DNA of 64,000 nucleotides from Bradyrhizobium sp. CB1015. GTDB taxonomy: Bacteria; Pseudomonadota; Alphaproteobacteria; Rhizobiales; Xanthobacteraceae. The DNA lies in contig NZ_CP104174.1 of NCBI RefSeq assembly GCF_025200925.1, positions 5,456,001 to 5,520,000 on the forward strand. Direction: 5' to 3'. The notes beneath the pieces were generated by a model that saw only the letters and a program-made list of their open reading frames with translations, ran no database searches and had not been told where the DNA came from. Made by a program: the position numbers and the translations under genes. Position 1 is the stretch's first letter. Each line of letters opens with the position of its first letter. Of this stretch, positions 12,120-14,817 are shown piece after piece.

Positions 12120-14330
12120 TCAGAGTCGAATGTCCTCGTAGGACTCGATCCGCCGCGGGCCGACCGAGGTCGCCTCGTGCGAATCCGCATCAGTGAGATT
12201 GCCGAAATCCAGCTTGGTCAACCTCGTCAGGTCCGCGATCGAGACCTGGAAGACGCTGACATCCTCCTCGGACATCCGCTCGCGCAGATCCACCTCCTGG
12301 ATGCGATCGATCTCCATGACCTGCTTTCGCTGGCTCATGAGGAAGGCCGCCGCCTTGAGAGCGTCGTCATCCTCGTTGCGTCGGATCAGGATCTTCCAGA
12401 AATATTTCGGGATTTGGACGCCGCCGAAGCTCGGATCCTTGTGCGGCCGGCCCGCCGGATTGGGCAGATCGGATCCATCGGCGTCGGGCCCGTCGAACAC
12501 CGGACCGTTCATGACGATGCCCTTCTCCTCGCCTTCGAGCAGGACATCGCGCGTATAATCCTCCAGTCCCGCCCACAGCTGCTTGCCCTGATTGAACGAG
12601 AAGAACTGCGGCGAGCAATTGGTGAAGTGGAAGGAATCGTCGCCATGCTGCTTGGCCGCAGTGACGGTGTCGCCCCAGGTCGCATCCAGGCGGCGCACGA
12701 GATGACCGCGGTCGAACGGGTTCTTGCTGCGATCCGCCTCGAAGGTGGCCTGCTTGCGGTAGAACTCGTCGCCGATCTGGGCATCGTCGTCGATGCGCGG
12801 ATCGCGCAGCCAGGAATCACCCTCTCGCTTGCCAACGTCCTGCTGCTTGCCGCCGTCGATGTTGACGCAGCTGAAGAAGGCGAGCCGGCGCTCCTTGTTC
12901 ATGACCACGCTGTAATTAAAATACTTCAGCTCGGACTGCCTGGAGCTTCCCTTGAGCATCGCGATCCTGGACTTGAGGGAAGCCGGAATCTTCGGCAAGG
13001 GCACCGCGAATTTGCCGTTGCCGAGGAAGTTCGCCTTGTATCCGGGACGCGATTTCAGCGTGCCCTGATCGATGTGCACGGCCTCCATCGGCAGGCCGTT
13101 TTTCGCACTGATATGAGGCAGCAGGCCGGCCGGCGGGGTGATCAAAGGCGTGCCGCCGTTCTGCGTGCCGCCGTTCGTGGCCCCTCCGTTGCCCCCTACA
13201 GGTCCCGGCGGCACGAACGGGATGTCCTTCTTGAACATCGGCAAGGGCACGCGGATCGGGACCACCAGCGAGGTTCCGTCGAGGGACTGCTCGACCCAGA
13301 CATTGGTGCCGAAAACAGGCGCGGCAGCCGGTGCCCGGACTTTCGCGATCTCTTGCCGGATCGGCGGCTCCTCCTCGTCCAGCACCGGCTTGATCAGCGG
13401 ATGGGAGCCGACGGCAACCCTGAGATCGGCGACGATCGCGCTGATGCGGATGCCTTCATTGGCGATCCAGTCGATCATGGATTCGTCCATCGACGGCTTC
13501 CACACCTTGCCGTCCTTGCTCAGGGTGCGGCCCTGCGCATCCTTGCGGGGAACGCCGCTGTGATGCAGCGCGACCACTTGCCAGAAGCGGTTGAACGCGG
13601 GCGAGCCCGAGGATCCCGCCGTCGTGTCGGTGTTGTACCAGAGGAAGTCGCCGACATATTTGAGCAGCTTGTTCTCACGGACGCAGACCTGCTTCATCTG
13701 CCCGCTGGGATGCTGGATGATGGTGAGGTACTCGCCGGGGTCTGCCTTGCCGGGCGCGCCGCCGAGCGGCAGCCATCCGAAGTCCTCGAGCTCCTCCCCG
13801 CCTGACAGCGAGGTCGGCGCCACCGCGACGACCGAAAAATCCAGCCTGTCGTTGGTGTAGAAGAACTTGCCCGGCTCGAAGCCGAACCGCACCGGCACGC
13901 GCTCCTGCCCGGAGACGTCGAGCTCGTAGTTGAAATCGGCGATCGAGTTGGCGGCCTCGGCCGGCTTGCCGAAGACGTGATGGTTCGTCAGCAACAGGCC
14001 CGGCCCGATCAGGAAGCCCGAGCCATAGCCGAGCAGGTTCGACTTGAGATCCCTGACCTGGATGCGGCAGACCGAGCGCGAGGCGGCGGTCCCCTTGGCG
14101 AGATAGTTGATGCTGTCGAGATCGTTGCCCTGGATGATCCGCTCCAGGCCAATCTCGGCCTTCTCCACGTCCCGCGTCTCGGCCAGCAGCTGGCGCTGGC
14201 GTAGACGCATCTTCTCGACGGACATCTCGATCGGACCGTCGCCCAATTTCCGGTTCAAGGCTTCGGGTGAGAACTCGGCTTGCTTGAATCGCCTTTCTGA
14301 GCCCGCGATCAGGCTTGGCTTGATGAGCAT
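12120..14330 (-). CDS. Trypsin-like serine protease fused to NUC1-type DNA/RNA non-specific endonuclease
   Basis: A 736-residue two-enzyme protein. Residues 1-80 are a charged helical leader. About 85-300 form a trypsin-like protease: GYGSGFLIGPGLLLTNHHVF with catalytic His118, RLDFSVV with Asp164, TDTTAGSSGSP with Ser241. Residues 340-410 are a Pro/Gly/Asn-rich linker containing GGNGGATNGGTQNGG. About 430-700 form a beta-beta-alpha-metal nuclease of the DNA/RNA non-specific endonuclease family: KNPFDRGHLVRR with catalytic His543, and HFTNCSPQ with metal-ligand Asn571. There is no signal peptide, so the protein is probably cytosolic. All catalytic residues are present. I see no immunity protein beside it and the neighbours are housekeeping. 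Such fusions resemble effectors of bacterial conflict systems; the role here is inferred, not shown. Confidence 0.9.
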   Translation of the reverse strand: MLIKPSLIAGSERRFKQAEFSPEALNRKLGDGPIEMSVEKMRLRQRQLLAETRDVEKAEIGLERIIQGNDLDSINYLAKGTAASRSVCRIQVRDLKSNLLGYGSGFLIGPGLLLTNHHVFGKPAEAANSIADFNYELDVSGQERVPVRFGFEPGKFFYTNDRLDFSVVAVAPTSLSGGEELEDFGWLPLGGAPGKADPGEYLTIIQHPSGQMKQVCVRENKLLKYVGDFLWYNTDTTAGSSGSPAFNRFWQVVALHHSGVPRKDAQGRTLSKDGKVWKPSMDESMIDWIANEGIRISAIVADLRVAVGSHPLIKPVLDEEEPPIRQEIAKVRAPAAAPVFGTNVWVEQSLDGTSLVVPIRVPLPMFKKDIPFVPPGPVGGNGGATNGGTQNGGTPLITPPAGLLPHISAKNGLPMEAVHIDQGTLKSRPGYKANFLGNGKFAVPLPKIPASLKSRIAMLKGSSRQSELKYFNYSVVMNKERRLAFFSCVNIDGGKQQDVGKREGDSWLRDPRIDDDAQIGDEFYRKQATFEADRSKNPFDRGHLVRRLDATWGDTVTAAKQHGDDSFHFTNCSPQFFSFNQGKQLWAGLEDYTRDVLLEGEEKGIVMNGPVFDGPDADGSDLPNPAGRPHKDPSFGGVQIPKYFWKILIRRNEDDDALKAAAFLMSQRKQVMEIDRIQEVDLRERMSEEDVSVFQVSIADLTRLTKLDFGNLTDADSHEATSVGPRRIESYEDIRL

Positions 14331-14604
14331 CGTGACCTCTCAAATGACTGGCGAATATTGGACGGGGTCGGCGCCCTAAAAAATTGGCGCCAAGTTGCAG
14401 CGGCGGGCGGACTGCCGGTCGCTGCCGGTCGTTCTGGAAATCGCGGGCATGCACCCGACACTACTTTAGACCTGTATATCTACTGCCACGCAACCACGCG
14501 GCATCATGCCATGGTCTGCAACCTCACCAGTGTGAGATTTCCCACAATTGATCGATGCAGCCGTGCATCACGATTTCGCGCGCTGCTTGCGGCCCTCTGG
14601 CGAT
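14331..14604. other. Upstream region of the protease-nuclease gene
   Basis: About 270 bases separate the protease-nuclease start from the end of the small membrane protein gene. It is lower in GC than its surroundings around 14460-14560 and so may hold a promoter. No gene or clear operator is seen. Confidence 0.4.
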
Positions 14605-14817
14605 CTACGGCTTCAGGTACCACCGCCGCAGCGCCACGAGGGACCAGATTGCCTCGACCAGGCCGAACGGCCAGGCGCCCTGAAGGAAACCGTAGGCCGA
14701 GCCGAGCGCGCAGGACGCGGCGAACAGCAGCACGAACCAGCGGCTGCGATCCTCCAGGGCGTAAGTGACCAGCATCGCCGTGACGGCGAACAGGCCGAAT
14801 AGTGTCAGCGCATCCAT
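14605..14817 (-). CDS. Small two-to-three-helix membrane protein, 70 aa
   Basis: Begins [20 protein letters not shown], with two or three hydrophobic helices: one N-terminal, one around [18 protein letters not shown], and a weaker one around [17 protein letters not shown]. An Arg-rich C-terminus suggests a cytoplasmic tail. It is divergent from ruvX, 47 bases away. Small membrane proteins of this type occur next to ruvX in Bradyrhizobium (recall). Function unknown. Confidence 0.8.

Follow-up and report, generated by a model that had tools for sequence, protein, structure and literature searches.

Here we describe a fusion of a trypsin-like protease and an EndoG/NucA-type nuclease, encoded in a 64,000-nucleotide stretch of the Bradyrhizobium sp. 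CB1015 genome (contig NZ_CP104174.1, positions 5,456,001 to 5,520,000; hereafter ‘the window’). The architecture is an ordinary one, already known as the fused form of NucA-trypsin System 3, going by the available portion of its description. What goes beyond the ordinary is membership in a widespread branch without recurrent partner genes, housekeeping-like retention at a single chromosomal site, a conserved motif in the linker and a predicted site of self-cleavage. We tentatively favor – at somewhat less than even confidence – a reading in which the protein is a latent cytosolic protease-nuclease that is activated by assembly, whereupon the protease would free the nuclease and bring about death or arrest of the cell.

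A single chain with two complete active sites

The fusion gene and the parts of its product are arranged as follows (coordinates are those of the window):

12120..14330, (-) strand: protease-nuclease fusion gene, whole open reading frame (ORF), ATG start, 736 amino acids, with homologues in the same genus
14130..14330, (-) strand: residues 1-67, N-terminal four-helix region (AlphaFold2 model)
14076..14123, (-) strand: residues 70-85, conserved helix before the protease (consensus, and helix 75-84 in the model)
13377..14108, (-) strand: residues 75-318, trypsin-like protease of V8/HtrA/FAM111A fold, with triad H118/D164/S241 and S1-site residues T236/H256
13086..13376, (-) strand: residues 319-415, interdomain linker, largely disordered (predicted local distance difference test score, pLDDT, <50 at 327-342 and 365-416)
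13233..13280, (-) strand: residues 351-366 (DGTSLVVPIRVPLPMF), conserved beta-strand motif in the linker, recurrent across relatives
13083..13085, (-) strand: Glu416, predicted self-cleavage position before the nuclease
12123..13049, (-) strand: residues 428-736, EndoG/NucA-type (Endonuclease_NS, DRGH) nuclease with H543/N571/N580/E590 (Pfam E 1.6e-40)

Pfam searches placed Trypsin_2 at residues 103-255 (E 4.2e-20) and Endonuclease_NS at residues 459-714, both far above cut-off, and the gene is the sole Endonuclease_NS match in its genome (8.41 Mb, single contig). The ATG is preceded by GAGAGG, which by eye resembles a Shine-Dalgarno sequence. Full-length copies at 71-100% identity in the same genus establish that the ORF is not a chance product.

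Conservation was examined across 68 aligned two-domain sequences, namely the window protein and 67 of the best 79 loci (of the other 12, seven were near-identical orthologues, three were truncated or split between frames, one was a duplicate and one was locus L162). H118, D164, S241 and the nuclease residue E590 are each identical in all 68, and H543 and N571 in 67, leaving both active sites retained in 67 of the 68. The exception is a planctomycete relative (L108) in which H543 and N571 are both lost. This fusion, with its degenerate nuclease, is the middle gene in a run of three adjacent protease-like genes (L108, 8661-13479), the outer two encoding 418 and 410 amino acids.

A hydropathy scan of the window protein detected neither a signal peptide nor a membrane segment, with a maximum of 1.12 over 19 residues for the whole chain and of 0.21 over 15 residues within the first 60. 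Among 104 homologous ORFs examined, only two exceed a hydropathy of 1.8. By its sequence, then, the window protein is a predicted soluble, cytosolic two-enzyme chain with complete active sites and a disordered linker.

Much of this had been anticipated in a first-pass annotation made from the sequence alone. That annotation reported an intact trypsin-like protease and an intact NUC1-type nuclease on one chain, which the Pfam matches and residue conservation bear out, and the catalytic residues that it named (His118, Asp164, Ser241 and His543) are correct and conserved. Its lack of a signal peptide agrees with the hydropathy scan, its flexible linker is disordered in the AlphaFold2 model, and its N-terminal helical leader appears in the whole-protein model as four helices (helicity only) at residues 5-18, 22-29, 38-52 and 55-67 (pLDDT 79-93).

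Relatives across bacteria and archaea

The named loci closest to the window gene (71-92% identity) all belong to Bradyrhizobium, but the best 79 loci extend over Pseudomonadota, Acidobacteriota, Planctomycetota, Cyanobacteriota, Bacteroidota, Actinomycetota, Chloroflexota, Bacillota and Methanosarcina. Contigs representing one genome per species yielded at least 581 relatives, some perhaps single-domain. Within the class, 21 of 289 alphaproteobacterial genomes (own genome included) match at E<=1e-10, mostly over one domain; this search scores few candidates per genome, and its counts are lower bounds. Among 115 plasmid records with a match, 17 cover >=80% of the query at one place, and a viral collection gave just two protease-type relatives among 13 pattern stretches. 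One plasmid relative, from Cupriavidus, is located between gspF and gspG in a cluster of type II secretion genes (L048, 5093-12988).

Protease and nuclease trees co-vary across 84 fusions (mirror-tree r 0.65; the highest value in 500 permutations was 0.16).

A predicted acid-specific protease and an EndoG-like nuclease

In a structure search with the model, the closest fold to the protease domain was that of FAM111A (PDB 8s9k/8s9l), with alignment rows spanning mainly residues 70-318. The available text on FAM111A describes a protease that is active as a dimer, formed by a helix at the protease start (PMC10920703). The conserved pre-protease helix of the window family (consensus ERIIGxNDLxxxxYLxxGxxAxR) probably sits at the place of this dimerization helix, judging from match ranges and not residue by residue.

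Two further positions bear on specificity. T236, five residues before the catalytic serine, is present in 67 of the 68 aligned sequences, and H256, fifteen residues after it, in all 68; the same spacing is seen in the V8 alignment. We take Thr and His at these positions to have a role in binding an acidic P1 residue, as in V8-type S1 sites. The S1 site thus appears to be of the V8-type, acid-specific kind, and cleavage after glutamate is predicted.

The nuclease domain matched EndoG in a profile search (E 1.1e-18), and both EndoG and EXOG were among its matches in structure and profile searches. NuiA, the sole nuclease-inhibitor family searched, had no match in the CB1015 genome, nor did the controls match.

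A conserved beta-strand motif in the linker

The linker contains a motif in which hydrophobic residues alternate around a proline (hydrophobic-x-hydrophobic-Pro-hydrophobic-x-hydrophobic-x-hydrophobic-x-hydrophobic), approximately [ILV]-T-[IV]-P-L-x-[IL]-T-[VI]-x-[LI]-G. Reducing the 68 sequences to <60% identity left 44 non-redundant relatives. A regular expression for the motif, written after the linkers had been inspected, matched 21 of the 44 linkers, where shuffling the linkers predicts 0.17; in one of these cases (L155) the matched stretch is Ala-Pro and merely overlaps the motif. Outside linkers the expression matched once in 28,321 residues. Pro358 is retained in 41 of the 44, and the motif is present in all 20 Bradyrhizobium carriers examined.

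A motif profile gave a similar picture. Of 104 homologous ORFs, training members among them, 49 scored >=8 bits with it, while reversed sequences reached 8 bits in none of 104 and 6 bits in four. Among 6848 other ORFs only four scored >=8 bits, and all four are protease-like and outside the training set: the fusions in L192, a locus from a same-order genome, and in L193, and the two separate proteases around the L108 fusion. Both of these flanking proteases end C-terminally in the motif. Scanned loci other than L108 had no adjacent motif bearer at >=8 bits, and no other frame of >=100 amino acids in the window or in 20 non-carrier Bradyrhizobium regions reached that score.

In the model of a second relative (L105) the motif is undocked, in coil with pLDDT under 50, as would be expected of an element acting between molecules. 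Being conserved, beta-prone, shared with neighboring proteases and apparently undocked, the motif suggests an interface between molecules, for which the nearest known kind would be the RHIM and BASS motifs. Going by the available portions of their descriptions (PMC7889193, PMC8086366), the likeness lies in a short motif prone to beta structure, set in a disordered part of a presumed cell-death effector and common to the effector and to proteins of adjacent genes – the latter seen here at one locus, L108. The window motif differs in lying mid-protein between two enzymes and in having no NLR-like (nucleotide-binding, leucine-rich-repeat) partner, and the comparison is one of descriptions.

We found no mention of the motif in the open-licence literature searched, a search that does not prove its absence from print. 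What appears to be new here is this motif, along with the S1 residues of V8 type and the presence of a glutamate just ahead of the nuclease.

A candidate self-cleavage site

The first invariant glycine of the nuclease domain, G430, is preceded at a distance of 10-18 residues by a glutamate in 40 of the 44 non-redundant relatives; about 17 would be expected from linker composition, a figure that ignores local composition near the nuclease. In the window protein this residue is Glu416, at the edge of a disordered stretch in the model. V8-type S1 residues and a glutamate before the nuclease together make for a concrete prediction of self-cleavage, with Glu416 as the candidate cut site – a testable prediction rather than a result.

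No recurrent partner genes

To identify possible partners, we tabulated 4348 neighbor ORFs within 6 kb of the gene at 83 diverse loci. No family occurred at more than seven loci. By eye, the recurring clusters were ABC transporters, signal-transduction, LysR, SDR and similar families, same-genus synteny and antisense frames. The first-pass annotation had asked for such a tabulation, and generic families are all that recur in it. The lack of a recurrent partner suits a stand-alone protein.

Searches for the components of related systems led to the same picture. EAD1 had no match in the CB1015 genome, while the same search matched in genome G428. A LypB-like query, one 1097-amino-acid protein to which the search for STAND proteins was limited, likewise had no match in the CB1015 genome; it matched in G428 (trivially, as the source of the query) and in the same-genus genomes G080 and G112. 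No LypB-like ORF stands beside a window-type fusion among the loci searched. The CB1015 genome has 12 other Trypsin_2 matches, none in the window. Ten of these 12 proteins were scanned at E<=1e-5: eight carry PDZ, one a peptidoglycan-binding domain and one nothing else; at this threshold, ATPase, nuclease and EAD domains were absent throughout.

Nor did defence models place the protein. In PADLOC 2.0.0 no model matched over the length of the protein, and its protease domain alone hit RT-Protease_XI, weakly (E 4.8e-4 and 2.5e-3). We also compared PADLOC matches (E<=1e-10) between 110 ORFs near the gene (<=2.5 kb, 52 loci, drawn at random from 246) and 110 far ORFs (>=7 kb, 48 loci, drawn at random from 133). 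The families matched numbered 99 near and 48 far, a tally of families and not of proteins, and thus a weak test with no clear defence-model enrichment. The 25 families listed for the near set were largely single-member type I restriction subunit models, plus two L108 proteases; the 25 listed for the far set were CBASS-like and others. Pfam Trypsin_2 matched three of the 110 near ORFs (the two L108 proteases being in the set) and was not among the 25 far families listed.

Comparison with known systems

The available part of the description of System 3 covers NucA with trypsin, also fused and also without EAD1, mostly in alphaproteobacteria, and predicts a proteolytic cascade that deploys the nuclease (Kaur 2020, PMC7159879). 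The window protein shares its Endonuclease_NS and trypsin-like peptidase, here in one protein. It differs in that the window has no second trypsin and the CB1015 genome no EAD1, that the distribution found here is wider, and that the linker motif and acidic cleavage site are not mentioned in that part of the description. Since EAD1 and extra trypsins are optional in it, the membership of the window fusion stands. A STAND NTPase with a Death-like domain is a further optional component, for which the one LypB-like STAND query had no match in the CB1015 genome.

LypC of Caulobacter crescentus likewise has an N-terminal trypsin-like domain, a flexible linker and a C-terminal endonuclease. In the available text, lysis depends on its protease serine but not on its nuclease residues, and in one homologue of LypC the nuclease domain is missing (Banks 2026, PMC13236601). 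It is operonic with LypA (CARD-trypsin-ATPase) and LypB (NLR-like ATPase-TPR), whereas the window has no other Trypsin_2 match and the CB1015 genome no LypB-like one, and we do not class the window fusion as a LypABC member. The LypC-like fusion compared here in its place is that in L192 (5528-17741). There a trypsin-nuclease is followed by lysozyme-like, trypsin, 644-amino-acid trypsin, 1097-amino-acid AAA_16/NB-ARC-like and EAD1-trypsin proteins, a cluster that looks like Kaur's System 3 and LypABC. Its fusion carries the motif in the linker, but its protease is far more divergent, with only a 17-residue local match to that of the window; the nuclease matches at 33% over 245 residues. This divergence and the lack of a recurrent partner place the window protein in a separate branch without recurrent partners. 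In Bradyrhizobium loci L067 (12-8887) and L068 (91-8969), a separate NucA nuclease comes after LypA/LypB-like genes, in what looks like an unfused version of the system. On two viral-collection contigs (L170 and L171, 6201-10729) a lysozyme-like gene stands beside two trypsin-like genes, by similarity to the L192 proteins.

A third comparison is with the pairs found in the bacterial immune systems Hachiman, AVAST, Lamassu and DRT, in which, according to the text available, a trypsin-like protease switches on a latent metallo-beta-lactamase (MBL) fold pro-nuclease (Tuck 2025, PMC12799240). The logic of the pairing is alike. The MBL nuclease is encoded by a separate upstream gene and gated by two loops, whereas the window nuclease is of the DRGH/EndoG type and lies on the same chain as its protease.

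These precedents bear on what the first-pass annotation had proposed. It took the two domains to occur separately in conflict systems, yet the fusion is in print (PMC7159879, PMC13236601). Its idea of a protease that switches on a nuclease is made plausible by published relatives, as a prediction in one source (PMC7159879) and as shown for a different nuclease family in another (PMC12799240). Its guess at the mechanism is itself already in print as a prediction (PMC7159879).

A resident gene at one chromosomal site in Bradyrhizobium

Full-length copies are present in 27 of 146 same-genus genomes (own included), and 56 of the 146 match at E<=0.001. One further carrier, G129 (L084, 6923-9134), has a copy split into two frames at residues 252/253, which represents either a broken gene or a sequencing error. 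We fetched 20 regions from the 27 other carriers, and in all 20 the gene lies between NMO/LysR genes and RuvX/AEC; a cyclase gene is on one side, on the other, or missing. In 20 of 20 regions from genomes without an orthologue the fusion gene is missing at the same site. LysR and RuvX are both seen in 18 of these, L189 and L190 having no LysR and AEC matches. Some non-carrier genomes, e.g., G008, hold more distant relatives elsewhere. Non-carrier L185 (2909-9677) has about 6.8 kb of other DNA between a 70-amino-acid ORF and RuvX; this suggests that the site may take insertions repeatedly.

We next estimated ratios of nonsynonymous to synonymous substitution (dN/dS) over 20 sequences, excluding the split copy. 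Median values were 0.144 for the whole gene, 0.120 for the protease, 0.095 for the nuclease (the most constrained part) and, for the linker, 0.29 over residues 301-427 and 0.44 over 363-412. Six neighbor genes gave 0.10-0.17 (one over 19 sequences, another over 14). A 41-taxon tree of four neighbor genes shows 11 changes of carrier label, against a mean of 13.9 and a minimum of 9 in 300 shuffles; carriers and non-carriers are interleaved and presence is thus scattered. The scatter may reflect either an ancestral insertion with repeated loss or exchange through the flanks. Either way, this is a resident gene under purifying selection, often lost or exchanged, rather than a fast-evolving island gene. 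A mobile island or prophage is not supported for Bradyrhizobium, the chromosomal neighborhood being the same in all 20 carrier regions fetched.

A search of up to 300 bases upstream in 21 carriers, using three regular-expression forms, found no LexA-like direct repeat or palindrome. Taken with the lack of a clear defence-island signal in the weak test above, this leaves the phage or damage trigger proposed in the first-pass annotation without sequence evidence.

A proposed mechanism and its alternatives

In the mechanism that we tentatively favor, the protein would normally be soluble, cytosolic and latent. The pre-protease helix and the linker beta motif may bring molecules together and control activation, and assembly of copies would render the protease active. 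The protease would then cut after the acidic residue at the Glu416 junction, on its own or a neighboring chain, and the freed EndoG-like nuclease would degrade the cell's nucleic acids. The outcome would be a costly program of death or arrest, perhaps against phage or severe damage; any abortive, antiphage or other defence role is putative. The protein might operate like LypC or as a one-chain version of the nuclease-protease pairs, in either case without NLR-like partners. A costly program of this kind would be consistent with a gene that is under purifying selection at its one site and yet scattered in occurrence.

Several observations weigh against this latent protease-nuclease. At aligned column 416 itself only 23 of the 44 relatives have Glu and 10 have Lys, and local composition could raise the number of glutamates expected there. 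The strict motif, defined after the fact, is missing from about half of the relatives and from the Methanosarcina fusions, and in the window model it forms short strands (pLDDT about 49-62) for which some docking is possible. FAM111A self-cleavage is independent of its dimer, in the text available (PMC10920703). Defence models are not clearly enriched nearby, and the absence of an effect of LypC nuclease mutations on lysis implies that freeing the nuclease may not be the point in LypC.

That last result leads to an alternative in which the protease does the work and the nuclease serves as stabilizer or late accessory, the activated protease cleaving a cellular target and so causing lysis or arrest, as for LypC. 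We consider this unlikely, though worth keeping in view. Besides the essential protease serine, the dispensable nuclease and the nuclease-less homologue of the LypC work (PMC13236601), it draws on the L108 fusion, whose nuclease is without its His and Asn while the triad is intact and a protease-like gene lies on either side, and on triad conservation in 68 of 68 sequences against 67 of 68 for the nuclease. The same count argues the other way in that catalytic nuclease residues are lost just once, and in Bradyrhizobium it is the nuclease that is most constrained (dN/dS 0.095 against 0.120). We rate as similarly improbable a more specific form of the favored mechanism: a partner-free, one-protein death switch in which the motif is a homotypic, perhaps RHIM-like amyloid-type assembly element that clusters molecules; clustering would turn on the acid-specific protease, and its cut at the glutamate ahead of the EndoG-like nuclease would release the latter. 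That separate motif-bearing proteases also join such clusters in some operons is an equally doubtful extension. If true, the switch would be a compact bacterial analogue of caspase/EndoG death, with the motif between protease and nuclease.

Similarity to FAM111A, the best protease fold match, and to EndoG and EXOG raises the prospect of an inducible maintenance enzyme for the removal of DNA-protein crosslinks or damaged nucleic acid, tasks that in eukaryotes are split between FAM111A and EXOG. Its single chromosomal site and neighbor-like purifying selection in Bradyrhizobium would suit such a role; scattered presence among close relatives, the lack of a LexA-like box upstream of the 21 carriers, and the poor fitness for repair of a non-specific EndoG-type nuclease without tight control make it distinctly unlikely. 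Alternatively, the fusion could act as effector for a system of several proteins, with an NTPase sensor encoded at another place in the genome. The L192 cluster, with LypA-like, LypB-like and EAD1-trypsin genes beside its fusion, and the LypA/LypB-like genes beside a separate nuclease in Bradyrhizobium L067 and L068 provide precedents. We nevertheless consider a remote sensor very doubtful: the CB1015 genome had no LypB-like or EAD1 match where control genomes did, no LypB-like ORF adjoins a window-type fusion among the loci searched, and the ten scanned Trypsin_2 proteins have no ATPase, nuclease or EAD domain. Least probable by far is an exported toxin or scavenging nuclease carrying its own protease. 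V8, Spl and Serratia nuclease, single-domain relatives among the PDB matches, are often secreted, and the plasmid relative L048 lies within a type II secretion gene cluster. Set against this are the window protein itself, which has neither signal peptide nor membrane segment, the rarity of hydropathy above 1.8 among its homologues (two of 104) and the lack of a recurrent neighbor fit to be an immunity gene.

If the latent protease-nuclease reading is true, NucA-trypsin systems include a large branch, spanning many bacterial phyla and archaea, with switch and executioner in one polypeptide and no adjacent sensor gene. Such a one-polypeptide branch would be easier to test than multi-gene CARD-NLR systems. 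The linker motif would be a precise, mutable handle on how the protein is held off and set off, and Glu416 a precise predicted cut. This orphan branch, its nuclease slightly more constrained than its protease in Bradyrhizobium, would also be a natural place to probe the role of the nuclease.

Features upstream of the fusion gene

One further ORF adjoins the fusion gene across a gap of 274 bases:

14605..14817: 70-amino-acid predicted membrane ORF, no Pfam match

This ORF recurs at this position in 17 of 20 carriers and 15 of 20 non-carriers, and is tied to the RuvX locus. Its presence in the non-carriers rejects it as a partner of the fusion. The small membrane protein that the first-pass annotation had noted next to the gene thus drops out. 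Within window positions 14331-14630, conserved upstream blocks around TTGTGG..AATCTCACA and TCTAAAGTAGTG are seen in carriers and may represent a promoter.

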